From contig NC_091972.1 in assembly GCF_036711975.1 (NCBI RefSeq), positions 12,777,001-12,841,000 on the forward strand: DNA of 64,000 nucleotides. The letters run 5' to 3'. The stretch is from Onthophagus taurus (lineage: Eukaryota; Arthropoda; Insecta; Coleoptera; Scarabaeidae). A model generated the notes under the pieces. It saw nothing but the letters and a program-made list of their open reading frames with translations. It was not told the origin of the DNA and did not search any database. Of the stretch, positions 35,412 through 59,773 are shown piece after piece (the stretch's first letter is position 1; each line of letters opens with the position of its first letter). A program made the translations under genes and the position numbers.

Positions 35412-36382
35412 ATGATGGGGTTAAAGTTAATTCTAATCATGTGTTTTTTTGTAAGTCATTTTTTTTATGTTTTATTTAAATTTAGTAACACAATTTTTTC
35501 TTTATTTCCAGATACTTGCAACTGGTAATACTAAAAAGTTTTTTTAATATAAAATTTTTAACTTTAAAGATTTTTGTAGATGTAAACGGTTTCCTATTTA
35601 AGAAGGCCAGGTTATTAGGTGAAGATGAGGCGAAAGAGTTAATGTTATCAGGAGAAGGTGGGACCGCTATCGTTGATGTCGGCTTAGGAGATATGTTAAT
35701 AGTAATGAGTGGAAAAATGTACACATGTCGTGATTTACAAATAATAGGAAGTGCTGTAAAATGTCCCAGCGGTTACGATAAATTCGAGTTCAAAAATACC
35801 AAAGATATGTGTTTCGCACTGCGATACGCTGTCAACGATGATATAGGGATTAGAAATTATTGTCTTTCCCCGAATTACGAAACAGTCGATTTTAAAATAG
35901 AAAACGGCCGGTACTTGTGCAAATCGAGTTCGAGAAGTTTAAACGCAACAATCATCACCGAAGACATTTTTTATCGCGTGTGCAGAAGACGAATTTCGGA
36001 TCCAATCAAAGTCCACTTCTTTGCTAAAGATAGAGATACAATGCCTGCTGCAGATAACATCGAATGCAGTCATTACACGTGCGAATTTATGACTTACAGA
36101 AGATCAAATAGGAGTTTTCCAGGTGCTATGATTCCAATGAATGGCAACTTACAACCGGGACCACCTATCGTACCTCAAAGTTATCCTGGTTATCTACCAA
36201 GTGGTTATATACCAAATAATAGATATCCTCCTGTGTACCACGATCAATCAGCTGGTGGATATCATAATGATAATGCACCAGTTCAAATGGATACTCAAGG
36301 ATCGTTAGTTTTAAATCAAGCTTCTGATGCTGTACAAGATGATGTAGACGCGTTGAAAGCAGCCAAACAGAATAATCAATAA
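35412..36382 (+). CDS. Secreted cysteine-rich protein, family member 1
   Basis: Exons 35412-35450, 35512-35524 (a 13-nt micro-exon) and 35580-36382; all GT/AG, 855 nt, 284 residues. The N-terminus MMGLKLILIMCFFILATDVNG is a clear signal peptide. A short spacer ends in GGTAIVDVGLG, equivalent to the separate 99-nt exon of the next two genes. Residues about 55-190 form the family cysteine domain: MYTCRDL, AVKCPSG, DMCFALRYA, NYCLSP, YLCKSS, YRVCRRR, IECSHYTCEF. The tail is rich in Pro, Tyr, Gly and Gln (PGYLPSGYIPNNRYPPVY). An AATAAA follows at about 36427. Two codons ATG-ATG open the frame. I do not recognise the domain. Extracellular location is inferred from the signal peptide. Confidence 0.85.
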
Positions 36383-36993: not shown

Positions 36994-37789
36994 ATGAAAT
37001 TTTCCTGGATAACGACTATATTAATATTCAAATTATATTTTCAGGGTTACACTGGTATGAAATCCATTAACGCTTTATACAATTCGCTTTTATTTATCGT
37101 AAAGTCTGTTTTAGATGGTCATGCGAGAAAATCTAAGCATCTAACCGATAAAGAGGTCATTTCCAATCTTATGCTAGGCAAAGGTGGAACGACCATAATA
37201 GAAACAGGATTAAGTGAATTTAAATTCAATTAATTTTATATCGATCATAATCTGTCTCATTTTAGGCGATCACCTCGTTGCTAAAAATGGAGTCTTTTAC
37301 ACTTGTTCATCGATGAAAATTTTAGAAACAACTGTAAAGTGTAAAAGCAAATTCCAAGAACTAACTATAGACGATACGGAGAAATATTGTTTTGCCCAAA
37401 GATACTCAACATGGCATAATACAAAGTCAACGAAGTACTGTATTGGGAATGATGGGGAAGAAGCTTCATTTGGTTTTAGCAAGGGTAAAAAAAAATTTTT
37501 GGAAAGTAATGAAATAAATGAGGAAGATGATGAAACTGAAGAGAGTGTCATTCAATGTGTATCATCAACCGGCACTCCAGCTTTGTTTATCGATCATACT
37601 GAATACGTTAAGATGTGCAAAATAAAACCAGACCAAGAACGACTGTTTGTATTTTACGCCAACACCAAAAGAAACGTCCCGCAAATTTCTCCTGCCAGTT
37701 CGATACGTTGCGATGGGTTAGTTTGTCGGTTTCGGGCCAAGTTAAAATTGGACACAACTATCGCTAGCTCGTTCAGGCGCAACAGATAA
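36994..37789 (+). CDS. Secreted cysteine-rich protein, family member 2
   Basis: Exons 36994-37054, 37115-37213 (99 nt) and 37266-37789; 684 nt, 227 residues, with phase-1 introns. The start MKFSWITTILIFKLYFQGYTG works as a signal peptide. However, the stretch before GGTTACACTG ends in TATTTTCAG, a good acceptor, so by analogy with genes 1 and 3 the real first exon could lie upstream. The spacer exon ends GGTTIIETGL. The cysteine domain follows gene 1 closely: FYTCSSM, TVKCKSK, KYCFAQRYS, KYCIGN, VIQCVSS, VKMCKIK, IRCDGLVCRF. It has an acidic insertion (NEEDDETEES) and no long repetitive tail. AATAAA occurs at 37857. Function unknown. Confidence 0.82.
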
Positions 37790-39503: not shown

Positions 39504-39509
39504 TAGCCA

Positions 39510-39770: not shown

Positions 39771-40085
39771 AAATCGGTTCATTAATTTTTGTGTAAATAT
39801 TTCGAAAAATACAACTTTTCAGGAGAAGCGTTTAAAATTTACGTACTGTTATTAAGGTGATAAATTGAAAAAACCTAATTTACCTTTAATCTTTACAGTA
39901 TATCGATTTCCACGGAATTTGTGTTTGCGTGGTCGATTTCTCGAATATTTTCTATCCATTTCGTTTTGAAATAAACGTTTTTAACACACTTTTCGCCGCA
40001 CGTTGTTATTACGAAATGACCCGTACAAACGGACGTTTGTGTTTCAAGACTATTGGTGGGGATAAACGACCAAAAAGACAAACAG

Positions 40086-40914: not shown

Positions 40915-41520
40915 TTTGGAAGAAAGAGTACGTTATGAAAATTGTATTAGTTGACTATACTTTGTGGTTAGAAGCAAGGGAGATCAAGAGCAAAACAAGT
41001 GGTGAAGTCATTTACAAGATGAAGTCAATATTTGCAATCTTTGGGATCCCACACGAAATAATCGCCGATAATAATCCTTTTGATAGGGGGGAATGCAAAA
41101 AGTTTGCTAAAGAGTGGAACTTTAAAATAATCACAACTAGTCCACATCATTCACAGGCAAATAGTTTGGCAGAAAAGGCTGTGGGAATAACTAAGAAACT
41201 GTTAAAATGCGATTGGCATTGATTTTAATCTGATATTGCTTAACCACCACAATGTCCTGGTGACCTCACCAATGTTTCTCTAGCCGAGATGATGTTTGGC
41301 AGACATTGGAATCGATCTATTACAAATTCATCGAAACAACTATAAAAAGTATTTTGGCAGAACAGCAAGAAAACCAGAGGTTAGTTATGGACAAGGAAGG
41401 CGAAATAGTGTATTTCTAAAACACTCGCCATATGAGATAATTTTGAATGGTGTAGAAGTGCAGAGGATAGTGAATCAAGTTTTTGGTACAAAGTGACTCG
41501 AAGAAGGTTCAAAATTATCC
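40915..41520 (+). pseudogene. Ty3/gypsy-type integrase core fragment
   Basis: 40935-41222 reads VLVDYTLWLEAREIKSKTSG, then SIFAIFGIPHEIIADNNPF, then SPHHSQANSLAEKAVGITKK. This is the integrase core with the catalytic Asp (the D of ADNN) and Glu (the E of AEKAV) regions in order. The remaining part to about 41500 is frameshifted. Together with the LTR at 42292 it is the 3' part of one LTR retrotransposon, split by a LINE fragment on the other strand. Confidence 0.85.
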
Positions 41521-41634
41521 TGAAATTATCAAAGTTCCAATTGAAGACAGAAAGGTAACTCGAGGAGGTAGGCTAGTCTGGATTTTTTGGTCAGCATTAG
41601 GGTCCTTCCAGCCATATTACCTTGGAGGCAAAGG

Positions 41635-42276
41635 CTAGAATTTGTCCGCCGATTCCTCCTCCTCGCAGCATCCTCTGCAGATGTCGGTGTCACTTATTCC
41701 TATGTTCAGCAAGTGCTTCTGTAGATGCCAGTGTCCAGTAATTAGACCTATGACCAAACGAAGGTTTTTCCTGGACAGCCTCATAAATAAATCTGTTTGT
41801 TTAGGGTCAGGGTAGATCAGCGCCTCCTTAGCTTGGCGACATCCTGGTGTCCTGTCCCAGTAAGTTAGAAACTTCTTACGTGTTTCCTCTTTAAGCCTGT
41901 TGCCTCTCTTTCTTATAAGCTCTATTAAAAACCTTATTGTTAGGGCAATGAATGGTTCTGGCGGTCCCGGAGGTTCGCCTGCAGCTTTCGTTGCCAGTTT
42001 GTCCACCATGTCATGAAACTTATTTCCCGAATGACCCTTCGTCCAGCAGATCGTAATATCATTGCTAGCGGCTGCCTCACAGAGATTGTTATGGCAGTCC
42101 TCAAGCAACGAGGATGAACAGCGATACTGCCCGAGCGAGAGGAGGGCTTGTCTGGAATCAGAATATATTATAATTTTTTTGTTACTAATTTTCTTGGAGA
42201 TTTCCCCAGCCGGCAGAGAAATGGCCACCAGGTAGGCTAGTAAAACCGGCGTCATATTTAATAGATTACATAACAT
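41635..42276 (-). pseudogene. R1/I-type LINE RNase H fragment
   Basis: The minus-strand ORF of 213 codons carries an RNase H region (IIIYSDSRQALLSL, ITICWTKGHSGNKFHDMVDK) and the downstream LSRKNLRLVIGLITGHWHL and ICRGCCEEEESADKF cluster. The RNase H start and the Cys/His end are missing. It is related to, but clearly distinct from, the LINE at 27423-28396. It is nested inside the gypsy-type element. Confidence 0.85.
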
Positions 42277-42291
42277 AGTTAAGAGGGGAGA

Positions 42292-42501
42292 TGTTATAAT
42301 ATTTACTTTATGTTAAATAGTTGGCAACGCTAAACAACCACATTCCAATACCCCTAAGCCAAGCGTAAAATGTAATGGCCTGTCATGAGTAAAGTGTTGT
42401 CTTTTCAGTAGTTATTAAGTATTTCTATTTCAACGCTTTCCAATAAAACTAAACTAGTTAATTTGGTATTTTATTTAATATCCTTAATGGATAATACAAC
42501 A
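42292..42501 (+). mobile_element. 3' LTR of the gypsy-type element
   Basis: AAGAGGGGAGA at 42280 is a typical polypurine tract. The following 210 bp begin TGTTATAATATTTAC and end AATACAACA, i.e. TG...CA, and contain AATAAA at about 42442. It lies in the position expected for the 3' LTR behind the integrase fragment. No second LTR copy is in the window. Confidence 0.7.
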
Positions 42502-43091: not shown

Positions 43092-43099
43092 TATATAAG
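43092..43099 (+). promoter_or_regulatory. TATA box of the alternative-exon locus
   Basis: TATATAAG lies 67 bp before the start codon at 43159. Transcription would start near 43121. Confidence 0.6.
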
Positions 43100-43158: not shown

Positions 43159-43455
43159 ATGTATCTACCTAACATGATGATAGTAGTAGGGCTGCTTGTT
43201 TTGGTATGTTTACTCGCTCTAAATATCTATTTTATACGTATGTTAATTCAAATTTATTTGATTTTATAGTATGGATGTCTGGAAACCAGAGGTAAACCAT
43301 CAAACGGAGAAGTGCAAAACATAATGTTATTTTTCCAAATCATTATTTTTTCGTAGCTTACCTTGGCCAGGATGGCATGCTCAACAGACCATATACGCGT
43401 GAAGATATGATTCGGGGTTTACAAGGAATCACAGTTGTTGATGTAGGCGATCCAA
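43159..43455 (+). CDS. Constant 5' exons of family member 3 (signal peptide plus spacer)
   Basis: Three exons: 43159-43203, 43271-43292 (22 nt) and 43357-43455 (99 nt). Donors are GTATGT, GTAAAC and GTAAGT; acceptors are TTTTATAG and TTCGTAG. They encode MYLPNMMIVVGLLVLYGCLETRA (signal peptide) and a spacer ending GITVVDVGDP, homologous to GGTAIVDVGLG and GGTTIIETGL of members 1 and 2. The spacer exon is 99 nt long, as in member 2, and ends in phase 1 (last base A). Every terminal exon listed below has a phase-1 acceptor, so each can be joined in frame. This is the only signal-peptide exon set I can find between 43.1 and 57.4 kb. Confidence 0.85.
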
Positions 43456-44331
43456 GTAAGTAGATATGTGTGTGGGTTGAATTTTTTATTTTGCGCAACG
43501 TACGGTAGAATATCAATAAAGATTAAACAATGTTTAAACGAAAATTTTTTAAACAGATGTGCACATCTTCAAAATTTTTTTATTTATTTATAATTATGAA
43601 AGAATTATATAAAAGACGTCAAAATAAATGGTGTGAATACGTTGAATTTTTTACACATTTAAGTTACGATAATAAAACTCAACATATTCACATATTTAAC
43701 AATAAGATATTTGGCCATTAATTTAATGTAACAGAATATTCTGGAAAACTCCATGGAAGTAGATATAAAATAACAAAATTGTGCAATTTACTAAAAAACG
43801 GCGTTTCTTTGATTTATTCTGCCGTACGTCGTACAAAAATATATTTCATCATCATCCTCATTATTCCAAAACTATTCGTGAATATCCAGTAAAGCTTTCT
43901 AAAGCTGGCAGATTTAAATTAAGCGGCTGTTAATAAATTTATAGTTTATTATGAAGTGATTTAATTGACGGAAGTGAGTGCTAAATGTGAATGAAATTAA
44001 ATCAACAAAATCTGATATCAAATCCCAAAATAGGATGTGAGCTAAGTATAATTTTTATATATCATTTTTTGAATCTAATCAAACACAACAAAAAGGAAAT
44101 TGGATTACTTAACATTTACTAAATCGTTGCCTAAAATCGGTATAAAGTTTTGAATTTCGCATTTTAAACGTTAAAGTATAATAGTGTTTTGTTTATTAAA
44201 ATCGTTTCTGAAACAAAAGGTAAGTATAGCCTATTTTAATATATCATCACTTCAACATAGGGAAAATAAGGAAAATAATCAAGAAATTAAAGAAAGAAAC
44301 AGGCTTGAATCATCTCCTTCTATTGTTTCAG

Positions 44332-44756
44332 AAAAAAGTATTGCAATAGAAGACGATCGTCAATATGTCTGTATGACAAGATCCCTTGACCCTAAGACTG
44401 CAATGCAATGTATTCAACCGTTCGCAAGATATTCAGCGACATTAAACAAAGATTATTGCCTTTCTATCAAATACATTTTAAATAACAACACGATATGTAT
44501 TCCCTTTAGTGATACCACAAAAATTTTTATAAACAATGAAGGAATTTGTGTTTCTCACGATCACAGCAAAGTTCTAATATTAGACATAGAAAAGTATCAC
44601 GAATTATGTAATATTTACCCATGGCAACATCAATACACATATTTAAAACCATCGCTGGTTCCTGTTAATTCATTGGGATGTGTTAATCAAAACGTAGGAG
44701 CTTGCCAATTTATGTTACGAAATCAAAAAGAACATAGTAAGAAGAAAAAAAGTTAA
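44332..44756 (+). CDS. Alternative terminal exon A: full cysteine domain
   Basis: The acceptor is TATTGTTTCAG; joined to the 99-nt spacer exon it continues K-KSIAIEDDRQYVCMTRS. It has the long cysteine domain of members 1 and 2: YVCMTRS, MQCIQPF, DYCLSIKYI, TICIPFSDT, GICVSHD, HELCNIYPW, GCVNQNVGACQF. It ends in a basic tail (KEHSKKKKS). Stop at 44756 and AATAAA at 44815. This is the nearest exon to the leader and the most conventional product. A possible extra 5' exon (TATA at 44141, donor at 44220) precedes it. Function unknown; secreted by inference. Confidence 0.8.
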
Positions 44757-44908
44757 AACCGAACGAAAATTTGAGCTATCCCTTAATTATCTTAATTAAT
44801 CAAATCTAGGTGTCAATAAAATTAATAATTCATTTTGATTAAAACCATAAAACCATAATTCAAGTGTATTCTAGAAAGCATAAAGATAGATATTCTGGTT
44901 TGTTGCAG

Positions 44909-45528
44909 ACGACGCAATCGTATTAAAAGATAGAATCGAGTACGTCTGCCCAAAGGAGAATTTAACATTAAAAATGAGCGACCGATGTACGAGAGATTCT
45001 CAACGATACGAAGCAAAAGACCTTAAAGACTATTGCAAATCAGTGCGGTATGCACACAAAGAAGGAAAACTCTGTATTCCAGCAAACACAACAACCATAG
45101 TGGAGATAATCAACGCAAATTTGTGTGTAACTAATGATGGAACGGAAGCTTTGTATGCCGATGAAATTCAGTACGAAACTATTTGTGGAAGACTTCCATG
45201 GGACTTTAAATACATTTATTGGTCGCCACATTTGCGAAAAGGAACGATGCATCAATTGGGATGCAGCCCAAAGTCTCATCGGTACTGTGCGTTTCGAGCG
45301 ATTGTTAACACACCGTCTTTGTCTAAATTAACCGAGGATAAAATTATTATTAGCCACGCGCCTCAAGATGAAACCAAAAAATCCCTTCTCGGGCAAAAGC
45401 TTCTAAACATTTCTGGATCCTTCAATCAAGAACATACTCATATCTACAATATCAATAAAACGATAATTGGGAATATTGATATATCCGAAGAAGAACTTAA
45501 AAAAATTAATTTATCCAATTCTACATGA
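44909..45528 (+). CDS. Alternative terminal exon B: full cysteine domain with longer tail
   Basis: The acceptor is TTTGTTGCAG, only 152 bp after the stop of exon A, leaving no room for a separate promoter and leader exons. Joined in phase 1 it reads N-DAIVLKDRIEYVCPKENLT. The cysteine domain follows exon A closely: DRCTRDS, DYCKSVRYA, KLCIPANTT, NLCVTNDG, ETICGRLPWDFKYIYW, GCSPKSHRYCAF. The tail (TPSLSKLTEDK onward) includes NISGSFNQE, a version of the N.I..SFN motif found near the ends of exons C, F and G. Stop at 45528; AATAAA at 45572. Confidence 0.8.
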
Positions 45529-45693
45529 TATACAACTTGATATTCACCTTCATATTGTTTATAATTAACAAAATAAATGGATAGATGGTGAAGAATGCGT
45601 GTTTTCTATTAATTTTCTTATTCGAAATCCATTTCGTTCACGTAGTGATGAGTCCAAGTGTACAACAGCGCTAATTTTAGTGATTCGTTCCAG

Positions 45694-46604
45694 GCTTGAA
45701 TGTTCTTTACGATGGTAACCAGTTTTACGGATGCCCAAGGGATTCCAACAGAGGAACCTGGTCTTGCAAAAGATTTGTACCAGCATCAGATGATATTATA
45801 CACCAATTTGATCCAAATATGGGATTAAACGATGAAACCCAATCGGATGCTGTTGTTAAACCTAACGAGGAGGCATCGGACCAACAAACTGGTCTACGTT
45901 TAGGCCTATATCAGAAAGACGTTGACGTTGATACACCTGTAAGAGCAATGTTTAACCCTACTTCAATATTTAACGATGAATCAATGGGAATAATACAAAG
46001 CTACGAATCTCCGAGCATTATATCCCAGTCTGCACAACTAGGTTCTAACGTTCAAAGTCAAAATTTTGAGAACAATCCATCTCTACTTTTTAATCAAAAC
46101 ATTGCAAACGCCAACTATGGAGGTTACATACAACAACCCGCTTTCAACCAACAAGACTTATCGAATGGTTACGATACTCCTCTATATTATGGATCTGCTA
46201 CTCTTTCAAAGACGAGTGCCGATGAAGAGGCACCCACACAATCTCAAAATAATGATGTCTTGGCAGATGAAGAAGTATTTGCGCGAATTGGAAATGTTGC
46301 CACAACCATAAATAGGGGTTACAACATTGGAACTCATTATAATCCAGTTTATATGCAACAATTTGCACAAGCCAATGGAAAAGGTGGTGGTGGTGGCGGA
46401 AATGCCCAAACACAAGTTTATAATAACTCGCCATCTAAAAGGAGGTATGATGAAGTTGAAGCACGGTTTGGTGGATTTCCATCAAGAATCATGAATTTAG
46501 GCAACACTGATACAAGCGATGTTGAAGTAACCAACATTATAGCAAATTCATTTAATAAAGACAGTGAGAAAAAGACGAATATTATTGACAGTTTTAAAGG
46601 TTAA
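45694..46604 (+). CDS. Alternative terminal exon C: short cysteine module and low-complexity tail
   Basis: The acceptor GATTCGTTCCAG lies 165 bp after exon B. It continues S-LNVLYDGNQFYGCPRDSN, then RGTWSCKRFVP: only the first two-cysteine part of the domain. About 270 residues of Asn/Gln/Ser-rich sequence follow, with the motifs LADEEVFARIG, NIGTHYNPVYMQQFA, a Gly run, RRYDEVEARFGGFPSR and the C-terminal NIIANSFNKDS...NIIDSFKG. Several of these recur in exons F, G, I and J. AATAAA at 46628. The exon lacks an in-frame signal peptide, which supports use of the leader at 43159. Confidence 0.82.
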
Positions 46605-46804
46605 TTTATGTTAAATGAGCGAAGAGCAATAAAAGCTTATGATATAAATACACATGTTTGTTTACGAATTTAAATTCTTCATCCCATAACATTTTCTTTA
46701 TAAATTTGGATAACATTATAGATTAATAATGTGCAATGAACATTTGGATCATCTAATAACAAACAATGGAACACGAGAGATAGTGAAGTAATATTTCCTT
46801 TCAG

Positions 46805-46962
46805 ATCGACGCGATTTCGTAGTCGACGATAAGCGTTATAAATGTCGTCGATCAATATTCGATACCAACCAACGGACTTGGGAATGTCACCCAACCAGTA
46901 ACTTTTTAAGAAATATAAAACCGTTAACGTCAAGTGGATTGAGGATTTTCGTAACCGAATAA
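46805..46962 (+). CDS. Alternative terminal exon D: minimal two-cysteine module
   Basis: A short exon: the acceptor CCTTTCAG is at 46804 and the stop TAA at 46960-46962, with phase 1 as in all the others. It encodes N-RRDFVVDDKRYKCRRSIFDT, then NQRTWECHPTSNFL, and a short tail ending RIFVTE. The module aligns with exon C (QFYGC...TWSC), exon E (KYVC...EWNC) and exon G (FYMC...HWMC). AATAAA at 46999. Because it is short and has no ATG it is easily missed. Its in-frame stop, acceptor, poly(A) signal and match to its neighbours support it. Confidence 0.72.
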
Positions 46963-47122
46963 CGTTGCGATTTGGACGATTTTTTGTTTGGGATATGAAA
47001 TAAAACGCTAAACTATAACAAAAGCATTTGATTTCACATGAAATTCATATACTAAACTAATCGAACTATTTCACTTAAAAAAATTACCTACTAGAAAATA
47101 AAGAAATATATTTAATTTCCAG

Positions 47123-47637
47123 TTTCAGCACCGTCACAATTGATTCATGGTCAAAAGTATGTCTGCAAAATTGCTGATGGTTATTCTAATGAATGGAACT
47201 GCGTCCTCCCAATGTTAGGGAGAAGTGCCCATAAACTTTTTCGAAACGAACCTGTTGTATATAATAGATTTGCACCATATGGCGGAAATAGTATTTTACA
47301 AAACTTTCAAAATGTAAATACACCTTATTCACAGATTTGGGGAAATATGATGGAACCCATGCTATATAAAAACAACGAACGATTATTTAGGAATCGGAAA
47401 AAAAAGGGATTTAGTGATGATTTTATGGACAGCCTTATGAAAAAAGTCGAAAACTACAAAAAATTTGTTTCAAAAAAACTTAAAAAAGAAGAAATATATT
47501 ACGGTAAAACATGGGTAGGAAAGCAGACATCGCATGGCAACGTCCATCAGCAAGCTATTATCGGCAATGGAGGATACATGTCCAGTAACATTAAAAAACA
47601 TCGATACTCAAGAACACATCCAATTAAGCAAGGGTGA
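47123..47637 (+). CDS. Alternative terminal exon E: two-cysteine module and basic tail
   Basis: Tandem acceptors TTTCCAG|TTTCAG (exon starts 47123 or 47129) are both phase 1, so a two-residue difference is possible. It continues I-SAPSQLIHGQKYVCKIADG, then EWNCVLPMLGRS. The tail is strongly basic (NRKKKGF, KKVENYKKFVSKKLKKEE) and includes one QQAIIGNGGYM copy of the repeat that dominates exon J. The frame ends KQG-TGA; the stop overlaps a good donor-like GG|GTGAGT, but splicing there would give phase 2 and break the frame of the later exons. The nearest clear AATAAA is at 48079, farther away than for the other exons. Confidence 0.75.
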
Positions 47638-48308
47638 GTGAAGAATTTCAAAAAAAATATACTATAATGAGTCGAACTAGGACTTACTTGTAGCAGAAGT
47701 AACAAAAATCAAGAAGTTACAGAACCAAAAAGTAAAGATGGATCAAATAACGATTAATAATATAATAATATGATGAAGAGCACATACAAATATTGATGAC
47801 ATAAGTAAAAATAGATAAGATAAGAATAGAACATAAGGATTTTTTTGTTAATGATACATATCATTAGGTATTAAGAGTACCCACGATCTTTATACTTAAA
47901 ATACCAAAAATATTTCCCACATTCCCCGGTATATCTGAAATGATCGAGTAGTTCTTAAATCATACTCAATTAATTCAGATTAGCCACCTAATAAGCACTT
48001 TTATAACCAAGATCGTGACTACCAATAATACTTCGTACTTGTGATCATTTCAATAAGATATGATTACAACACAGTACTAAATAAAATGAAATAATTTAGT
48101 CAACTTTGCTGAAATCTTTGAAACAAAAAGTGTATTTTTCTATTAAACTAGATTAACTACTTTATAATCTAAAAAGTGTTGAATACGTGAAGATCGCGAG
48201 TGATTGCCCAAATGTTTCGTTCGGTGTTAACTCCAACGCATTACAAAACATAATCGGACATAAGCGATAACGAAACTATTGATTATAACCCCCTCTTTTT
48301 ATTTGCAG
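47638..48308. other. Intron or spacer between terminal exons E and F
   Basis: At 671 bp this is one of the larger gaps in the array. I searched for a signal-peptide exon and found none; short ATG frames close at once. It ends in a long pyrimidine tract, CCCCCTCTTTTTATTTGCAG. Confidence 0.5.
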
Positions 48309-50650
48309 TGCCTACAGCACATTTAATGAGATATAACGACGAGGATCCATTCCTTAGAATTCATCAATCAATTGACTTTAACGGGATAAATCAAGAGGCA
48401 GGTGTAGATAGTGGTGCGGAAGATATTTTACAATCTATCTCACCTTCTGGGGATATTATTCAAAGTATAGGAGGCGGTGCAACAAACGGTGTTGGTGTGG
48501 GAGCACGATCAAATGGTGGTGGTGGTTATAGTTCTAATTTTGGAATTGATCAAGCATCTAATGCAAGAGGATACCCTTCCAGTTCTGGTAGCTTATTAGC
48601 ATCTAGTGGAAGTAGATATGCTTCAAATTCCGCAGGAGTTTTTGGTTCTAGTCAAAATCAATATAACCAATACTCTGGAGCTGCAATGGGATCTAGTGGA
48701 AACGGATTCAGTTCTGCGGGGTTAGGAACTACCGCAAGTAGAAATACTTTTACTCCGGGAGGTGTTGCTACTACTGGTATTAATACATATAATTACGGAA
48801 GAGACGTTGGGTCTACGGGATATGGATATAATTACGGGTTTGGAAGAGTCCCAAATAATAATTTTGGAGGATATCCAACATCAAGCGAGACGTTAGTATC
48901 GGGATACGGAGCTGGTTCTAGTTCTTCATCTGCTGGTTATTCCGGATTGATTCACAACAAATTTATTAATCAAGCCGATAAGGGATTGAGTGAAACTCAT
49001 ATTCCCCATACTGTAGTTGGAACAAATACTGCGCAAGCTGCAGGGGGTATTAATAGTGATGTTAACGTTGGACTTTTATCAAACACGAATGCAGCTATGA
49101 TTAGCCAATCCGCAGGAACGTATGGAGCTAGTGCTAAAAATAGCATAAGTGGGGGTTCTGAATCTAATTTTAATTACAATACAGGCTACATGAAACCAGT
49201 CGCCCCAACAACCGTACAGACACAACCACCAGCTATAAATTCTTTGCCATCTTTACAAACACCTCCTGGAAGATTTAGTGGAAGTGTTCAACCATATCCT
49301 TATGGAAGTGCATCCTTAGGGAGCCATATACAATATCCCGGCACTTCTATGGCAGCAATAAACCAAGCTTACAAGGAGACTATGGAAAAGTCACATCATG
49401 CAACGCAAGCGACTTCATCAGCGTTTGGAGCTTCCATAGAAAACAAATTTAGTGGTTATAACCAACATAGTGGTGGTATTCAACAAAATGGAATTGCATC
49501 CTTAGGTCGAAGTATACAACACCCAGATGCCTCCATTGCAGCAATGAAGGCCGCAGCTGCAGTAACACAAACTCACTTAAACACTAACCAATTATATAAG
49601 GAAGCCAAGGAAAAGGCACTCCATAGTGCGCAAGTTGTTTCGGCATTAGGAGCATCTAAGGAATCTCAAATTGGTGGTCATATTCAACAAGCACAAGGCA
49701 ACAATATTATACAGTCCATAAGATCCGATGAATCTGCAGAAGATTTAGGTATTATACAGTCAAATCAAGCTGATGCAAGTGCTCTACAAGCCAATCACAA
49801 AACGGCTTCCGATGGTTATGCGGCTGCAGGAAATTATAACGGTAATGCTGTTGGTGTCGCCACAATGGATTCAAGCGCAATTGCTAATAGCGCAAACTCA
49901 TTCATCGCAGCAAACACGGCATTGGACTCCAGTGCTATGATTAGCCAGGGAAATTCTATGGACTCTTCTTCTAGCAATTCTAATCTTATCGCTCAAGAAA
50001 ATTCGGCTATGGATTCAAGCATATCAGGATCCAACTCTATCAGCCGAGGAAGCTTAAATATGGACGCAAGTGCTAATTCTAATGCTAATTCTATTTCTCA
50101 AAATAGTTTATCGGCTGATGTAAGCGGTTCCAGTGCCAACTTGGAAGCACAAAATGCTTTGGGCAATGATTTAAATGCAGCTAATTCTATAAATCAAGCT
50201 CGCTCAGAATCAGATTCCAGTTCTTTAAGTGCAACAGCAGTGAATCAAGTAAATTCACCTATGAATTCTGGAAGCTCAAGTGGTAACAACATGAACGAAA
50301 AGAATTATGCGCCAGATCCTCTTACCGCAAACTTTATTGGCGGTATTTTAGGTTCCAATAAACCAAGTGGACAAGGATTTGGAAATCCTCTTCAAAATAT
50401 GGTTAATTCTTTGACTGCCGACATAGGTAAATCGACTGCTGGAGGAATTGCAAATAACATGGGGATGGCAAACGCATTCGCTGCATCAGCTTTGTCTAAT
50501 ATGCCGTCCGAACATAACATGAATCAAGATGGTTCACAAATGAACATTGGCAACGTTTCCGAGAAAAAGACCCGCGTGAGAAATGTTATAAAAGGTTCCT
50601 TTAATAGAAGTGACACCAAAAAGAAAAATATCATCGGCAGTTTTCAATGA
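48309..50650 (+). CDS. Alternative terminal exon F: 780-residue Ser/Asn/Gly/Ala-rich protein without cysteine
   Basis: One uninterrupted exon of 2.3 kb behind a very strong acceptor; phase 1, M-PTAHLMRYNDEDPFLRIH. No cysteine was seen and the two-cysteine module is absent. The first third is Gly/Ser/Tyr-rich (SSSSSAGYSG, YNYGRDVGSTGYGYNYG). The middle has Ala/Gln segments with the repeated IQ(Y/H)P...SIAAMKAAAA theme. The last third repeats loose units of the type MDSS-SNSN-LIAQENS, SISGSNSISRGS and SISQNSLSADVS. The end NVIKGSFNR...NIIGSFQ matches exons C and G. The composition is like silk- or glue-type structural proteins. AATAAA at 50686. Confidence 0.85.
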
Positions 50651-50846
50651 TACGCATATTTTGTATGTATGTATACGAAAGTAAGAATAAATTACTACTA
50701 GTTGAATTTTCTCTTTTTATTTACGTGTAACATCCCTTACAAAAAAAAAGAAGATTGTTCAACTTTATCACATCGTAATTTACCATTCGCCGCCAAAACG
50801 AAAAATGACTTTATAAAAATGTGAGTAATAGTATGCTTTGTTCCAG

Positions 50847-51412
50847 GACAAATTGTGTACGCCCATAATAAATTTTACATGTGCCACCACTTGCAACAAC
50901 CACAATATCATTGGATGTGTATGGAAATTGTGGATCCGATTACCAAATACGAGGGATTTTACAGACCTGACAACTACCATGGAACACTAAATTCTGTTAA
51001 TTTTAATCCCTATTACCCACAACTTAGAATGTTACACCCTTACGTTCAAAGATCTCAAAATGACGATGTCAGTTCCGAAATGGAAAATAATGGTGCGTCA
51101 CCCGATGATGACAGACCTCAATTACGCATGCTTGATGATGTTGATGCTACAAATCTTTTTCCTCAAGAAATGCCGAGCCAAAGCATTGGCGGTGTAAGCG
51201 AAACAAAAACTACTGTTAATAACGTTATTTCAGATTCTTTTAATACAAAAAACAATGTTGTATCAAACGTTATCGGTTCTTTTAATGACCAAGACGATTA
51301 CGACGATGATGAGGAGGATTACCCGATAGCAGCAAGGTATTGGCGACGTCGTCGCCATCCTGGACGGAGTAGAAGATATCGCCCGCGATTTAGGCGTTAT
51401 AGTGATTATTAA
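50847..51412 (+). CDS. Alternative terminal exon G: two-cysteine module, acidic and Arg-rich tail
   Basis: The acceptor CTTTGTTCCAG lies 197 bp after exon F. It continues R-QIVYAHNKFYMCHHLQQPQ, then YHWMCMEIVDP: the two-cysteine module. Next come RPQLRMLDDVDATNLF (the shared D-D-x-D motif), ETKTTVNNVISDSFN and NVIGSFNDQ (shared terminal motif). The end is a highly acidic patch (DQDDYDDDEEDY) and an arginine-rich terminus (RYWRRRRHPGRSRRYRPRFR). The opposite charges suggest an ionic interaction role, which is inference. AATAAA at 51417 is five bases after the stop. Confidence 0.82.
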
Positions 51413-51557
51413 ATGTAATAAAGAAAATTTAAGAGAGTTGTTGTATTATTTCCGCTTACCGTCTGGCACAATCGTTCCTCAACTCATCGAACATACTTTT
51501 CACGTTATTCACACTTATTTCGTTTTTATTAATTATTTCGTGTAATTGTTACAACAG

Positions 51558-51653
51558 GTTATAGGTCACCATACCGAACTTTTGCTCCATCAGTAAACCC
51601 TGGAAACTACCGATTAGGACCTAACAACGATTATTATGGACCATATGCACCAG
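51558..51653 (+). CDS. Candidate internal exon H, symmetric phase 1
   Basis: ACAACAG|GT at the 5' side and CACCAG|GTAAAAG at the 3' side enclose 96 nt, phase 1 on both sides, so the exon can be included or skipped without changing the frame. It encodes a Tyr/Pro-rich peptide (SPYRTFAPSVNPGNYRLG, then NNDYYGPYAPG). Joined to exon I the junction would read APG-QQMASVADG. If the donor is not used, the frame continues 13 residues to a stop near 51687, so it could instead be a short terminal exon. Confidence 0.5.
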
Positions 51654-51930
51654 GTAAAAGATTTATTTTATTTTTTTTTAATAATTAACCTTTCTTGAGT
51701 CAAATTTAAAATGATTATGTTTCCATTGCAATTATTTATGCATAAATATTCATAGATATTTCAGGACAAGAGGGTTGGAAACTTGATAAATTGAGTTGAT
51801 TAAGTCATAAAAAATTCTAAAAACTTATATATAACAAATTTCTTTTCGGAAAGTTTAGTCTATATAGTGTTTGTGATGTGTGCTTTCAAAAGAGGTGTGA
51901 TGAAGTGCTAATATCTGTCTATCGTTCCAG

Positions 51931-53843
51931 GCCAACAAATGGCATCTGTGGCCGATGGCAGATATTGCACGAGCTGCGATCAGTTAAACTCAGGATTGTG
52001 GAACCAACCATCACCAAAGCTTATAGGATACATTGTAGTGCCCGTATATAAAAAAACTCAATTAAGACAATCGCTTTGTTCGACGTTTCCAAGAAGTTGT
52101 TTAGGAATTCAAAACAATCTTTCTCCAACAAAGAATTATCTACGATCTCAACCCAATTATTTAGCGCAGGGTGTTCGAAATAATCCTCCCGCAATACCAA
52201 TGAATTATCGACAAGATCAATCAAATTATCTTCCTTTTACTGCATCAATAATGAACAATCGAGCAATCCTACAGAACTATCCAATATCACAAAAACCTTA
52301 TCTAGGAGACATCCAACCAACTTCTCCAGGGATTAGATATCCTACAAGTCAACCAAATTATGAGTATCAACCAACATCTTTATCGTTCAACAGAGTTAGA
52401 AATGAATTACTTAAAAGATATCGTCAACCATCTTCTTTAACATCCACGATGCCAAATGGATTGTCGAGATTTACACCACAGTATACCGAATTTCCACAAC
52501 AAAATCTTCGGCCATCTTCCTTAACATCTACGATGCCAATTGGGTTGTCGAGATATACACCACAGTATACCGAATTTCCACAGCAAAATCTTCGTCCATC
52601 TTCTTTAACATCCGCGATGCCAATTGGATTGTCGAGATATACACCACAGTATACCGAATTTCCACAGCAAACACCATGCTCCCAGTCAAAATTACAAACA
52701 CCTCCTGTAATCAATCAAAACAATAATATGGATTCTTTTGCTGCTAATAATTATAATACTATGTTGCCACCAAATAGAGATGTGTTACTTCCTAGTATTG
52801 GAAACGCACGCGAAAACATAAACGTAAACATGGGATATGATCCTCAAAGAAATAGTATACAACAGTTTGGAAACGATCAACCATTACCATCATTGACAAG
52901 TACTCAAAATCAACAAAGTGATTATGGATCTAATTCATTTTCAAATGGGCAGCAAAACAATCAAGATAATGTACCATCAAATTTAGTAGCATCAAATACG
53001 ATGAATTATGATAGCGTAAATCAATTTGGATATGGCGCAAGCACTTCAAACGATCTTGATCAAACAAAACCTAACGGAGACTCTAACTTTGCGTCTTCTT
53101 TCGATTCAGTATCTAAAAGCATCGATACTTCCAATTCGGATGTCGGAAGTTCAGCCTTAGGTTATGATAGTGCAAAGGATAATGCTCAAATGGAACAAGT
53201 TGTGAACCCAAATGACGATTCGGTGAAGATACAACAAGCATCTCAAGGCATGGATAATATTCAAAATCAAGTTGTTTCGGGACAAGATGACGCAAAACTT
53301 CAACAAGCCGAAAATGTTATTAATAATGGAGATGCATCGCAAGATTTATTACAAAATGCGTCACAAGATTTATCACAAGATTCATCGAGTGATGCACCAA
53401 AGAAACCTAATTTAGAATTGAACGATGATAAACATTTTGCGCAAGCGTCGATTGGTAGAGGTATCAAACAACATCAAATACTTAATGTGGATAAAATAGA
53501 TAAAAAAGCAAAGCGCGCAATGCAAGCAACTATTGGTTCAAACAATGTACAAAATCAAATAGTCAATTATCATGATGCTGATATTCCTGTATCAAACGAT
53601 ATGAGTATGCAAAATGATATGCCAATGAATCAAGATGATGCTGATACAAAACTTCAAGATAATAGTGGAGCGGGTGATGTTGCGAATAGAATACATGATA
53701 TCCGAACAAACATTAATTTCGGATCAAATATTGGAAATCGGTACGAACCTGTTTACATGCAACAATTCGCAAATTCTGGATCTGACGCACCAAATGGAGG
53801 AGCCGGTAACATGATGAGTCAAGCATACAACAAGCAACCGTAA
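51931..53843 (+). CDS. Alternative terminal exon I: Gln/Asn/Ser-rich protein with 28-residue repeats
   Basis: The acceptor is TCTATCGTTCCAG with CTAAT branch-like sequence at about -21, similar to exon C. Joined to exon H or the leader it reads QQMASVADGRYCTSCDQLNS (two-cysteine module, changed spacing). The body is Pro/Tyr/Gln-rich, with an 84-bp (28-residue) direct repeat three times from 52428 (PSSLTSTMP.GLSR.TPQYTE). Then comes Asn/Ser/Asp/Gln-rich sequence with QQASQGMDNIQNQ, AQASIGRGIKQHQ and MQATIGSNNVQNQ (relatives of the exon J repeat), and the end NIGNRYEPVYMQQFA shared with exon C. Stop at 53843, AATAAA at 53900. Confidence 0.85.
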
Positions 53844-53996
53844 ACACATTAATTTTGACATTAAATTAAATATATTTTGTTGTAATTCATAAATAATTGA
53901 ATAAAAATAATTCTGACAACTGCCAATTTTCTTTTAGTCAACTAAACAAGCATTATGTGTTTTGACGTTTTTAATAATAATAATCTCTTCTTTTAG

Positions 53997-56900
53997 GGCC
54001 TCTTACTCGAAGGTGTAGATATCCAGGTTACTTTCAATGCTTGCTCTTAAGTTATCAGAACAATCCTTACAATCGGCCAATATTCGATTCTCCCCAAAAC
54101 AGGATGTTAGACGATGAAGATGCAAACCTGCGGTTTGGTGGATTTGGCGTTCAACAAGCTGCTTCGGGAACTGGCAATGTTCAAAACCAAAATATTAACC
54201 GCGGTATGGCTTATGATGCAAGTAATGTGGGCATCATGAAAGCACAAGCTGATCAAGATCTATCGAATATGCTACAACAAAGTGGTTTCGGAAGCAAAAA
54301 CCTTGCATCAGATACATTCCAACAAGCTGCTAGTGGACAAGGAAATGTACAAAGCCAAAACATTAAACGCAGAAATGATTTTGCAGCAAGCAGTTTGTCT
54401 GCACTCCCTGGCCAATCGAGCCAAGCACTATCAGATTTACTACAACAAAGCGTTCGTGGTATGGGGGCCGCTAACGATATTTCTGCACAACAAGGAGTAG
54501 GGCAGGGTGATGTACAAAGTCAACTGCTTAAACAATCACTAGCAGATTATATAAAACAAAACGCTGGTGTTGGTGGAAGAGGTTTTCAACAAGCAATTAT
54601 AGGAAATTATAATAATCAAAATCAACTAGCTGGAAGAGCACTATCAGATAACCCAAATAATCATGGTTTAGCAAACGATTTCTTTGCACAACAAGCAGCT
54701 TCAGGAGTAGGAAATGTACAAAATCAAATAATTAGGCGACTCCTAGCAGATTCCCTACAACAAAATGCTAATGGTTTCGGCATGGGAAATGATGCACAAC
54801 AAGCAATTGTAGGACACAAGAACAATCAAAACCAATTGCTTCGAAAAACATATGATCAAGTAGCATTACAAGGTGCTTTAGCTCAACAGGATGTTGCCAG
54901 TTTAATGAACGCACAAGCTGACCAACCACTATTAGATTTAATGCAACAAAGCGGACGCGGTTTTAATTTGGGACACGATGCACAACAAGCAATTATAGGA
55001 AACAGGAACAATCAAAACCAACAATTTCGTAAAACATTTGATCAAATAGCATTACAAGGTGCTTTAGCTCAACAGGATGTTGCCAGTTTAATGAACGCAC
55101 AAGCTGACCAACCGCTATTAGATTTAATGCAACAAAGCGGACGCGGTTTTAATTTGGGACACGATGCACAACAAGCAATTATAGGGAACAAGAATAATCA
55201 AAACCAACAATTTCGTAAAGCATTTGATCAAGTAGCATTACAAAGTGCTTTAGCTCAACAGGATGTTGCCAATTTAATGAGCGCACAAGCTGATCAACCG
55301 TTATTAGATTTAATGCAACAAAGCGGACAGGGTTTTAATTTAGGAAGCGATGCACAACAAGCAATTATAGGGAACGCGAATAATCAAAACCAAGGATTTC
55401 GTAAAGCATTTGATCAAGTAGCATTACAAAGTGCTTTAGCTCAGCAAGATGTTTCCAATTTAATGAACGCACAAGCTGATCAACCGTTATTAGATTTAAT
55501 ACAACAAAGCGGACAGGGTTTTAATTTAGGAAGCGATGCACAACAAGCAATTATAGGGAACAAAAATAATCAAAACCAAGCATTTCGTAAATCATTTGAT
55601 CAAGTAGCATTACAGAGTGCTTTAGCTCAGCAAGATGTTTCCAATTTAATGAACGCACAAGCTGATCAAGTGCTATTAGATTTAATAGCACAAAGCGGTC
55701 AGGGATTTGGTATGGGACAGGATGCGCGCCAACAAGCAATTCTAGGACATGGAAATAACCAAAATCAAGTTAAGAGAAGGCCTATGGACTATGCAGCATT
55801 ACAGGGTGCTTTTGCGCAACAGGATATGTCTAGTTCAATGAACGCACAAGCTGATCAACCACTATCTGATTTAATACAACAAAATGGACTTGGTTCTAAT
55901 ATGGGAAACGATGCTGTGCAACAAGCAGCCATAGGAAACGGAAATAATCAAAATCAACTTTTTAGAAAAAGAAATTTTGCCATGGATAATTTAATAAATT
56001 CCTTAAACGATGATTTCCCAGGCGGAAATGACTATTCAGGATATCGCGTTCAACAAGCAGCGTCTGGTGTAGGCAATGTTCAAAATCAAGCAATACACGA
56101 CGAAGATAATCTAAACGCTTTATTACAAAACCAAGCTTTAAACGATGAAGAAATGTTATTTAATCTAGGTTTTAATGGTAATATCGGTGCAACAACTAAT
56201 CCCCCACCACAACCAATCGCATATCAGCCATATCAGCCATATCCCACTTACAAACAAGTTCCTATTATAGTAAGTAAACCTGTACTAGCAGATGCTCCAA
56301 ATGCAAGAATCCAACAAGCGGCACAAGGCGTAGGTAACGTACAAAATCAAAATCTAAGACTACTGAGTGATGAAGATGCGGAAGCTCGATTTGCATTCAA
56401 TCCCTATAGTCCACCACCCAGTGAAGGTATTAGAGCTCAACAAGGAATTCAAGGAAGAGGAAATACACAAAACGAAATTATTAACAAAGGAATAGTTTTT
56501 AATGACGAAGATATGGGGGGAAATTTTTATGGTTTGCCCTCGGGAGTACAACAAGCCGCTCGGGGACTTAATAATGTTCAAAGTCAGGGTGTCAGAGGCT
56601 ACACGAATGGTATGAAAGTTCAGCAAGGAGCGCAAGGAGTAGGAAATGTTCAAAGACAAGCCATCAATAATGATATGCCAAGCAACGGTTTCGGTTATGG
56701 TTATGGCTATTCTCCCATGGGTGGTCCAGTTAGAGCTCAACAAGCTGCTTCGGGAACCGGTAACGTTCAAAGCCAAAGCATTAATGACGAGGACGGACTA
56801 TTCAATGATGAAGATGTAAACAATGCAGTTGCCAATCTTCGTATTGGTCCTCCACAAAATACCGCTAAGAAAGCACTTAATGCGCAACAAGCAGCAAAAG

Positions 56901-57412
56901 GAGTAGGCAATGTTCAAAATCAAGTTATAAACAAATATGAGACAGAGAATGCAGGTTTTGGCGGAGAAGGAGGTTTTGGTGGGTCAGGAGGTTTTGGTGG
57001 GCCAGGAGGTTTTGGTGGGCCAGGAGGTTTTGGTAGACCAAGCGGACCTTTCGCGGGACCAGGTGCCAGACCTCCAAGATTCGGCGGAGGACCTGGATTT
57101 GGTGGAGGACCAGGAGGTTGTTCTGGTTGTTATGGTATGGGTGGTGGTGGTGGTATCGTTGGAGGTGGAGGCGTTCCGGGACCAGCCTTTGCCGGAAAAG
57201 GCTTTGGTGGTGGAGGTTATGGTGGTGGAGGTTTTGGTGGTGGAGGCTTTGGTGGCGGAGCCTATGGCGGCGGAGCTTATGGAGGCGGAGGAGACTCTGA
57301 TGAAAAATACCAACAAGCGGCGAATGGAGTCGGAAATGTTCAAGATCAAACAGTGGCAAGAAGAAAAGTGATTAACGACGAAGATTTTCAAGCGGGATTT
57401 TTGGTAAAATAA
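53997..57412 (+). CDS. Alternative terminal exon J: QQAxxGxGNxQxQ repeat protein with Gly-rich tail
   Basis: The acceptor is CTCTTCTTTTAG; it continues R-PLTRRCRYPGYFQCLLLSYQ with two cysteines, then LDDEDANLRFGG. About 20 copies of a 13-residue unit follow (for example QQAASGTGNVQNQ, QQAIIGNKNNQNQ, QQAAKGVGNVQNQ). Between 54791 and about 55910 the unit sits in an exact 186-bp (62-residue) tandem repeat, about six copies, with the spacer FDQVALQSALAQQDV...DQPLLDL.QQSGQGF. Further DEDAEARF-like motifs lie between later units. The end is glycine-rich (GGFGGPGGFGGPGG, GGYGGGGFGG) with GCSGCYG, then a last QQAANGVGNVQDQ. The frame is 1138 codons. The unit resembles curli-type beta-solenoid repeats in its Q, G, N and Q spacing, which is inference. 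AATAAA at 57449. Confidence 0.88.
54791..55910 (+). repeat. 186-bp tandem repeat within exon J
   Basis: GATGCACAACAAGCAATT-type starts occur at 54791, 54977, 55163, 55349, 55535 and 55721, exactly 186 bp apart and therefore frame-preserving. The central copies differ by only a few bases; the outer ones are more diverged, as expected of unequal exchange. Confidence 0.95.
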
Positions 57413-58584: not shown

Positions 58585-59773
58585 TTACTTTGGGTCGATA
58601 TTAAAAATTTTATTACAATTGACAATAAGTGTTTCAATCATGAGAATGTCACAGGTGATGTCTGGAATGCAAGAATCAGTCGATTCTGGTGGACCAATTA
58701 AAGTTGGTGCGAACACAGTGGCCAAATTGTGTGGCGTCATTTTATTAACAGAAGAAAATGATGCCACTCTATCAAAAAAACACAAATAGAAATAAAATAC
58801 TAAAATTAAACACTACTTATATACTTACTTTGCCAAGTGCTTTATCATAAACATTAATGTGTCATAATGAGCTTTGGGAAGACCTTTCAATGAGAAGATT
58901 ATAGACGAAATTTGTAAATCTACGTTTTTGTGCTCTAAAAAGTATTAAAAGATTATAAAGGAAATTTGAAATGGATGAAAAATGCTTACGAATTGCATCA
59001 ATAAGTCGTGGATGAACTTGGAATGTAATTAAAGGAATTGGTAGCAGTCTTAAATATAATTTTAAAGCTCCTGTTATCACATTTATATTTGGATATTTTG
59101 AAAGACTCAAATCAGCTTTTTCTCCATCTAAAATCATAAAGATTAAAAAATAAAACTAGTCATTAAAGAAAAGTATTAATTAACCTTTATCAAGGGCCAT
59201 TTTAATGGCATCAATTTCTTCATAAAACCCACTCAAACGATAAATTCCTTCAACTTGAAGACCCCTTTCTTCAACTTCTGCGACACATTTCGTTAAAACA
59301 AAAGGTAATTCGGAACCGTGAGCTGTGAGCAACGTTGTTAGTTCAATTCCAAAAACACCTCTTAAGTATTTTAAATCGGGCACACAATCATTTGGAAATT
59401 TTTCTGAACATCTAGCTATTTTATAATGGTTAGTTATCACATAAAAATAATTTAAATACTGACTTACTATGAGCAATCATTCCGCAATCATCACATTTGA
59501 CACCTTGAGCAGTAAATCCCCACAAGAAATTTCCGCAAAGTTCACACCAATTTAATCCTTTGAAAGTAGTTATTTTAAAAATATGAGATTTTTCGATTTT
59601 TGGTGGTTGTGGGTTGAGTATTTGTTGTGGAAGCGGGATGTCATCTGTACCGGACGTTGTTAAAAACGATGATTTATAATTATTATTCCTAAAAAAAAGA
59701 AAAAAGAGTGTAAATAAACTATGTATTAAAAATTCTATGAAAATTAATAATTATTAATAACTTACATTTTCAT
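58585..59773 (-). CDS. RhoGAP5A: Chimaerin-type Rac GTPase-activating protein (C1 plus RhoGAP), short form
   Basis: Six coding exons on the minus strand: 59773-59766, 59688-59468, 59415-59185, 59127-58990, 58934-58829 and 58768-58585. All are GT/AG with matching phases, 888 nt, 295 residues. After a short N-terminus ([11 protein letters not shown]) comes a full C1 zinc domain (H.FK..TF.....[24 protein letters not shown], then [10 protein letters not shown]). The RhoGAP domain follows, with the arginine finger in GIYRLSGF, then [19 protein letters not shown] and [17 protein letters not shown]. In the family this domain inactivates Rac and C1 binds diacylglycerol at membranes. The N-terminal SH2 domain of long chimaerins is not encoded here, so this is either a short form or the downstream part of a longer transcript with upstream exons beyond 59.8 kb. 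The symbol follows the Drosophila orthologue by family resemblance. Confidence 0.9.

Follow-up and report, generated by a model that had tools for sequence, protein, structure and literature searches.

The question raised by this locus is whether one secretory leader serves nine different protein bodies by being joined to nine alternative terminal exons (A–I). That a single locus exchanges its whole 3′ module in this way had been proposed in an earlier note on the same stretch of Onthophagus taurus DNA, which comprises 64,000 nucleotides (the window). The arrangement is probably best explained by a single gene that has one promoter and a single secretory leader (L), followed by an array of tandemly duplicated alternative terminal exons (Table 1). 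The common phase, the acceptors, the poly(A) signals, the lack of any other detected leader and the existence of paralogues speak for the proposal, whereas the isoforms for which we searched are missing from the protein database.

Table 1. Positions of the leader, the terminal exons and the paralogous genes in the window
Feature	Position	Strand	Remarks
U1, paralogous gene with own leader and one module	35412..36382	+	exons 35412–35450, 35512–35524, 35580–36382
U2, paralogous gene	36994..37789	+	exons 36994–37054, spacer 37115–37213, terminal 37266–37789 in phase 1
TATA-like box of leader	43092..43099	+	motif scan; consensus match only
Leader exon 1	43159..43203	+	signal peptide start, phase 0 out
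Leader mini-exon, 22 nt	43270..43291	+	phase 1 out
Leader spacer exon, 99 nt	43357..43455	+	phase 1 out; donor CAA/GTAAGT
Terminal exon A, 141 aa, eight cysteines	44332..44756	+	
Terminal exon B, 206 aa, eight cysteines	44909..45528	+	33% identity with A in 127 aa
Terminal exon C, 303 aa	45694..46604	+	has C-terminal stretches in common with F, G, H
Terminal exon D, 52 aa	46805..46962	+	weakest of the array as coding exon
Terminal exon E, part 1	47123..47633	+	unspliced form reaches stop at 47637
Probable last exon of E	47697..47757	+	AATAAA lacking within 80 nt
Terminal exon F, 780 aa, Ser/Gly/Ala/Asn-rich	48309..50650	+	
Terminal exon G, 188 aa	50847..51412	+	
Probable cassette exon before H	51558..51653	+	phase 1 at either end
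Terminal exon H, 637 aa, Asn/Ser/Gln-rich	51931..53843	+	has C-terminus in common with C
Terminal exon I, 1138 aa	53997..57412	+	18 copies of QQ(A/G)..G..N(V/N)Q.Q repeat; Gly-rich end

The leader had been described as secretory, with a 99-nt spacer exon that ends in phase 1 at 43455, and these coordinates check out. It consists of three exons, which corrects the earlier description, and one of them is only 22 nt long. The encoded peptide is MYLPNMMIVVGLLVLYGCLETRAYLGQDGMLNRPYTREDMIRGLQGITVVDVGDP; the last base at 43455 is one base into a codon and is followed by GTAAGT. Near the TATA-like box the motif scan also found an Inr-like GAGTT at 43121.

The anatomy and the reading frames of the array are established from the nucleotide sequence. 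As claimed before, an AG stands right before the first base of each of the nine exons, and phase 1 is open to a stop codon in all of them. An AATAAA had been reported for all but one exon; indeed it starts at most 62 nt from the first base of the stop codon in 8/9, exon E being the exception. This is the layout of alternative terminal exons. The background frequency of such a signal is 0.172 (3305 random stop triplets in the non-coding DNA of the window), which for eight of nine gives a binomial P of 6e-6. With an untrained matrix of the general insect consensus, the assigned acceptor has the highest score over the initial 300 nt of the frame for A, B, C, D, F, G, and H (7/9), and that of F is the best among 804 AG sites. 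Three sites outscore the acceptor of E, the best two of them also in phase 1, and two out-of-phase sites outscore that of I. The top acceptor is in phase 1 for eight exons; the chance of this is 0.001 for random and independent phases, an assumption which duplicated exons violate. By leave-one-out codon usage the assigned frame beats the other five in every exon, weakly for D, which with only 52 codons counts against our reading. All ten rows of tandem repeats, found within H and I, have a period that is a multiple of three.

Two exons may have to be added. Exon E probably continues in a second exon after a good donor following 47633; this donor leaves phase 2 and is compatible with E's own second exon alone. 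Ahead of H, the sequence points to a likely cassette exon of phase 1 at both ends. We also considered that the exons of the array might be internal ones spliced in succession, and not alternative ends, and rejected this, as phase-1 donors scoring at least 4 are absent except in G (51092, 4.1), although the test is weak: only two of nine presumed real donors reach that score.

One could argue that the leader is joined to the nearest one or few exons only and that the others are relics or rarely used. Here the protein database has to be considered. A search of nr with leader+B (lengths of about 144–457 aa, which admits the fusions of A, B, C, E, and G) returned no protein, and a protein search with exon I found none among the best 7993 word-sharing candidates. 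As both searches were empty, six isoforms (A, B, C, E, G, and I) are not in the database that contains U1 and U2. This result, like the shortness of D, would fit a restricted use of the array. On the other hand, the open frames of F, H, and I extend over 780, 637, and 1138 codons with coding-like codon usage, these exons have acceptors and AATAAA signals, the repeats in H and I are in frame, and the set of eight cysteines is intact in A and B. We therefore regard restricted use of the array as improbable.

Within the window two complete genes, U1 and U2, lie upstream of the leader; their identification is new relative to the earlier note. U1 is the O. taurus gene LOC111420952 of nr, our hand-made model, built before the protein was retrieved, having the same length and differing in 4 of 284 residues, and U2 is LOC111420953 isoform X1, again of the same length as a model built beforehand and with 2 differences in 227 residues. 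Both genes are nearby paralogues that combine the leader architecture with the eight-cysteine module, as the array locus does. The leader design is common to L, U1, and U2, and the spacer exon of U2 likewise has 99 nt and ends in phase 1. The similarity between the spacers of L and U2 is modest, since 34 of 2000 shuffles reach it. In contrast to the array locus, U1 and U2 have a single leader per module and no array of alternative ends was seen, LOC111420953 being labelled isoform X1 though. As U1 and U2 are complete with one module each, one leader per module is the usual form of this family. At the array locus it seems, judged from the gene structures, that the terminal exon alone was multiplied, without its leader. 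A profile of leader+A, leader+B, U1, and U2 retrieved among proteins only U1 and U2 of O. taurus, which are themselves rows of the profile.

Part of the homology among the modules is equally established. Eight cysteines are invariant across A, B, U1, and U2, and the combination that characterizes the secreted family of U1 and U2, namely a leader with spacer exon and an eight-cysteine module, is found in the leader joined to A or B. Exons C–I do not have the eight cysteines: C, D, E, and G contain two each, F none, H five and I four. The opening pattern of the module (aromatic-x-Cys...Cys, with its start at residue 11–13 from the acceptor) is present in C, D, E, and G, that is in four of the seven other exons, as compared to 2 of 443 open control reads. 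Exon F is without the cysteine pattern, H and I retain only part of it, and these three exons are mostly rich in Gln, Asn, Gly, and Ser. Local similarity connects A with B, C with H, F, and G, F with G, and weakly H with I; neither D nor E matches any other exon in BLAST at E ≤ 0.05. Genome searches with B, C, E, F, G, and H found no copy beyond this cluster among the best candidates scored.

The earlier note had held that none of the individual exons starts with a signal peptide. We ran a leader scan across all nine spacers, which together measure 1,999 nt: at a loose threshold none of them contains a hydrophobic ATG exon with a donor, while the leaders of L, U1, and U2 are all recovered (3/3). 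At the strict threshold the U1 leader is picked up through its mini-exon, whose donor scores 1.08 as against only 0.73 for the first one, and the 876-nt intron before A yields no candidate. Detectable additional leaders are thus absent from the spacers. By chance this zero is unremarkable, as the loose threshold should let through 1.33 false candidates (P 0.26), and so the argument rests on the recovery of real leaders by the scan, of which only three were available. In the genome, the peptide of the L spacer exon matched only itself at E ≤ 10; as this search also fails to find the spacers of U1 and U2, which have diverged, it is no proof against diverged leaders elsewhere.

It had further been claimed that gaps of 140–200 bp leave no room for separate promoters and leaders of several exons. 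This fits most of the spacers, which measure 145–200 nt and, except behind E, are also occupied by the poly(A) signal of the preceding exon. It is less compelling for F and H, as their spacers of 551 and 518 nt (the latter composed of 145 + 96 + 277) could accommodate an undetected 5′ exon. The array might then be a tandem of separate genes for secreted proteins, each with a small promoter and an overlooked signal-peptide exon. U1 and U2 are just such genes and lie at most 8 kb upstream of the leader. TATA-like sequences occur within spacers at 46643, 46699, 50812, and 51826, of which the last two would be candidate promoter elements in this case, and a weak signal-like ATG at 50647 with a phase-1 donor (exon end 50680) overlaps the stop of F. 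Given the outcome of the scan we set separate genes with hidden leaders aside as unlikely, although they are the least improbable of the alternatives considered here.

Under the reading of one gene with alternative terminal exons, we infer the following course of expression. The pre-mRNA would start at about 43.12 kb and traverse the array, so that the nine exons would be co-transcribed. The donor at 43455 would be joined in phase 1 to one terminal exon, and that exon's own poly(A) signal would direct cleavage of the transcript, so that splice choice and polyadenylation would be coupled. Every mRNA would then encode the same signal peptide and an N-terminal tag of about 33 residues followed by a different body (52 to 1138 aa), and the product would be secreted, possibly with a structural role outside the cell. 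As to its origin, the array may have been born by duplication of the terminal exon in an ancestral gene with a leader and an eight-cysteine module, of which U1 and U2 would be intact single-module copies. Later exons in this order of duplication would have retained the start of the module and acquired low-complexity tails.

Trans-splicing has been reported for mod(mdg4) and lola. Here too a leader, either the one at 43159 or that of U2 with its phase-1 end at 37213, could be trans-spliced to independently transcribed terminal exons. This would account just as well for the common leader, for the phase shared by the exons and for their separate poly(A) sites, and the sequence cannot separate cis from trans. 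Trans-splicing would, however, require promoters inside the array, for which the short spacers offer little room, and as the exons lie on the same strand in one 14-kb block, cis splicing suffices. We thus consider it the most improbable of the alternatives.

Searches for domains and structures returned little. In Pfam, the nine exons and the fusions of the leader to A, C, and G gave nothing above the cut-off with one exception: DUF2805, at 34.2 bits against a cut-off of 22.5, covers 24 residues of the repeat in exon I and was taken as a chance similarity of the repeat. A POLO_box in A was below the cut-off. The U1 and U2 proteins gave no Pfam domain. Compared with solved structures, the profile built from these two proteins together with leader+A and leader+B had no match at E ≤ 1. 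The AlphaFold model of exon I was unusable (mean pLDDT 33.0) and that of exon A, from six sequences, was poor (mean pLDDT 55.8); a fold search with the latter had no match at E ≤ 0.001, and neither model entered the interpretation. Among the papers listed by a literature search there was no report of this locus.

The locus had been likened to mod(mdg4) and lola. These Drosophila genes combine a constant set of 5′ exons with many alternative terminal exons at the 3′ end, and their products are nuclear BTB proteins with alternative C-terminal ends, the BTB domain being N-terminal and the zinc fingers C-terminal. The likeness holds for the exon layout. It does not extend to the proteins, as those of the beetle would begin with a signal peptide and no BTB or zinc-finger match was obtained in Pfam with the nine exons or the leader joined to A, C, or G. 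In the Drosophila eggshell gene dec-1, secreted Gln-rich repetitive proteins have a common N-terminus and a C-terminus varied by splicing, with few isoforms. The beetle locus would be similar in that its products are secreted, Gln-rich and repetitive, alike at the N-terminus and different at the C-terminus. Pfam contains DEC-1 family models, but no DEC-1 match was found at E ≤ 10 with leader+A, +C, and +G and exons F and I, or at E ≤ 1 with the nine exons, the filters dropping most matches above about 0.1. The orcokinin gene was considered for exon sharing and dropped as a precedent, as the passages on it do not state such sharing. Passages of a 2026 chorion review touch on dec-1 in general terms only.

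For secreted proteins, serpin-1 is a closer precedent than mod(mdg4) and lola. Serpin-1 of Manduca sexta has 14 alternative copies of exon 9, and PpSerpin-1 of Pteromalus puparum has 21 C-terminal forms, confirmed by RT-PCR, which occur in venom and larval saliva and whose alternative regions are 44–50 residues on a common serpin body. Like the beetle locus, these loci have constant 5′ exons and duplicated alternative exons for the C-terminus of a secreted protein. In contrast, all but about 33 mature residues would vary in the beetle, with bodies of between 52 and 1138 aa, and there is no serpin match in Pfam among the nine exons or leader+A, +C, and +G.

Large arrays of terminal exons are known mainly from transcription factors. 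In secreted serpins the array affects a short region only. The beetle array, if we read it rightly, exchanges nearly the whole secreted protein. As a tentative idea, which we hold to be possible but doubtful, the locus could be a kit for extracellular material: the same promoter, secretion signal and N-terminal tag would be combined with nine bodies by the choice of the last exon and its poly(A) site, the tag would direct the bodies into one assembly, and the kit would evolve by duplication of the last exon. If so, its bodies would include a disulphide-rich domain at one extreme and, at the other, long repeat polymers rich in Gln, Asn and Gly. The genomes of the relatives O. sagittarius and Digitonthophagus gazella have been published, and one of O. 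binodis is also listed. Within 22 kb two routes of expansion would be seen next to each other, that of complete genes together with their leaders (U1 and U2) and that of terminal exons alone, and the cluster would be a clean case for studying when alternative splicing replaces gene duplication.

The most likely reading of the locus, judged from its sequence, is that one promoter and one leader serve a choice among terminal exons and poly(A) sites. As the earlier note had claimed, the leader ends in phase 1 at 43455 (see the table). It had described a signal peptide plus a 99-nt spacer exon; both are present, but the leader comprises three exons, one of only 22 nt. The nine acceptors of the candidate terminal exons A–I are found exactly at the bases it had named, all in the phase of the leader, and each frame reaches a stop codon. 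Within the opening 300 nt of each frame this acceptor outscores all others in seven exons (A, B, C, D, F, G, and H); in exon E three acceptors outscore it, the top two of them in the same phase, and in exon I two, both out of phase (scores from a general insect consensus matrix, not a trained one). Codon usage, tested for each terminal exon with the other exons as training set, prefers the stated frame in all nine, weakly for D. An AATAAA, which the earlier note had reported for all but one exon, starts at most 62 nt from the stop codon in eight of nine cases; as background, 17% of 3305 stop triplets taken at random from the non-coding DNA of the window have one within 80 nt.

Coordinates of the leader, the terminal exons, and the upstream paralogous genes U1 and U2
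Feature	Position	Strand	Remark
Leader exon 1	43159–43203	+	signal peptide
Leader mini-exon	43270–43291	+	22 nt
Leader spacer exon	43357–43455	+	99 nt; stops one base into codon, then GTAAGT
Exon A	start 44332, stop 44756	+	
Exon B	start 44909, stop 45528	+	
Exon C	start 45694, stop 46604	+	
Exon D	start 46805, stop 46962	+	
Exon E	start 47123, stop 47637	+	stop 47757 with second exon spliced on
Exon F	start 48309, stop 50650	+	
Exon G	start 50847, stop 51412	+	
Exon H	start 51931, stop 53843	+	
Exon I	start 53997, stop 57412	+	
U1 exons	35412–35450, 35512–35524, 35580–36382	+	complete gene
U2 exons	36994–37054, 37115–37213, 37266–37789	+	complete gene

Before B, C, D, E, G, and I the spacers are so short that a separate promoter would hardly fit, and spacers other than the one behind E also contain the poly(A) signal of the preceding exon. 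The argument of the earlier note that there is no room is weaker for F and H, as their spacers of 551 nt and 518 nt (the latter including a cassette) would accommodate a promoter. This probable cassette exon of 96 nt (51558–51653) has phase-1 ends on both sides and encodes a Tyr/Pro/Gly-rich peptide. A scan for leaders, which required an ATG, a hydrophobic stretch after it, and then a splice donor, picks up the starts of the leader, U1, and U2 (3/3) at both a loose and a strict threshold. The nine spacers, together 1,999 nt long, yield no candidate even at the loose threshold, which agrees with the proposal that no signal-peptide start precedes the terminal exons (0/9 vs 3/3). Going by the rate in other non-coding DNA of the window, the spacers should contain 1.33 chance candidates at the loose setting and 0.17 at the strict setting, which makes zero unsurprising in itself (P 0.26); the scan carries weight because it recovers this family's real leaders yet sees none in the spacers. 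A very short or further split leader could be missed. One weakly hydrophobic strict-threshold candidate in phase 1 (ATG 50647, exon end 50680) lies over the stop codon of F; the others past the leader fall within coding exons but out of their frame.

The complete genes U1 and U2, each encoding a secreted protein with a single module, lie upstream of the leader and belong to the same family and strand. The spacer exon of U2 has 99 nt and a phase-1 end exactly as in the leader; in U1 the spacer and the module, the protein part encoded elsewhere by the terminal exon, lie within a single exon. Spacer similarity is clear between leader and U1 and between U1 and U2 (reached by 0/2000 shuffles) and modest between leader and U2 (34/2000). 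In nr, the U1 protein corresponds to LOC111420952 (284 aa, 4 differences) and the U2 protein to LOC111420953 isoform X1 (227 aa, 2 differences), both from Onthophagus taurus. As our hand-made models preceded these matches of equal length, some confidence can be placed in the exon reading. The name isoform X1 implies that other isoforms of U2 may exist. The U2 leader ends in phase 1 at 37213, and splicing to the exons at 44–57 kb is conceivable in principle.

Pfam gave no match for the U1 and U2 proteins, and a profile search of the protein database found relatives only in O. taurus (U1, U2). Against the proposed splicing, a search for the leader joined to B, whose length limits also admit the leader joined to A, C, E, or G with 55 residues in common, found no protein in the database that contains U1 and U2. 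The interval may be missing from the annotated release, the isoforms may be unexpressed in the sampled tissues, automatic annotation may have failed on it, or splicing may proceed otherwise.

U1 and U2 are surrounded by transposon remains (32791–42312): a helix-turn-helix frame at 32791, a weak minus-strand RNase H match under the Pfam cut-off (41638–42312), and piggyBac-like (39225) and integrase-like (40860) frames judged by eye, neither with a Pfam match. Two minus-strand amidohydrolase frames at 26518–29793, guanine-deaminase-like by eye, flank a plus-strand RNase H frame (27420–27992). At 59183–59750, minus-strand frames that encode RhoGAP and C1 domains and that we take to be chimaerin-like form the downstream border of the locus.

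Exons A and B are related (33% identity, 127 aa, E 3e-22), and eight cysteines are invariant across the modules of A, B, U1, and U2. C-terminal stretches are common to C and H (45% of 71, E 2e-11), C and F (47% of 36, E 2e-6), and F and G (50% of 40, E 9e-6); C and G are more weakly similar (E 4e-4), and exon I matches C, F, G, and H marginally within low-complexity sequence (E 0.004 to 0.03). D and E match no other terminal exon at E≤0.05. The first cysteine pair (aromatic-x-Cys, residue 11–13 past the acceptor) recurs in C, D, E, and G, is absent from F, and is partial in H and I. These 4/7 remaining exons compare with 2/443 open control reads, a flattering contrast since the pattern was set on A, B, U1, and U2 and its width picked with the sequences in view. 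Among the best candidates scored, genome searches with B, C, E, F, G, H, and U2 found no copy beyond the cluster, nor did a search with the spacer peptide, which also missed the U1 and U2 spacers.

All ten reported rows of tandem repeats fall in H and I, and every period (12 to 186) is divisible by three, as selection on the frame would predict. Exon I carries 18 copies of QQ(A/G)..G..N(V/N)Q.Q at 54152–57349, 17 of them with A, reminiscent of amyloid-forming curli repeats; a Pfam scan of exon I gave no curlin match, and no protein match was found among 7993 candidates scored. The richness of F, H, and I in Gln/Asn/Gly/Ser suggests extracellular structural material.

A motif scan found a TATA-like box at 43092 and, 29 bases downstream, an initiator-like match. 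From this putative single promoter transcription would cross the whole array, the donor at 43455 would join one acceptor per transcript, and cleavage at the poly(A) site of the exon joined would form the mRNA end. The signal peptide and an N-terminal tag would be common to all products. Diversity would have arisen by duplication of the terminal exon alone; U1 and U2 each retain a leader. We infer that splicing is coupled to poly(A) choice in this way, that the products are secreted, and that the array evolved in this order.

Comparison systems are mod(mdg4), lola, and dec-1. The secreted serpin-1 is likewise encoded with an array of alternative terminal exons: 14 copies of exon 9 are reported for Manduca (PMC5691223), and for Pteromalus 21 C-terminal forms confirmed by RT-PCR, alternative regions of 44–50 aa, and a joint role of gene duplication together with alternative splicing (PMC10513286). 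In contrast to serpin-1, the beetle locus would swap almost the entire mature protein, with a size range of 52–1138 aa. Terminal-exon arrays are already known, and what would be new here is the exchange of nearly the whole mature protein and this size range.
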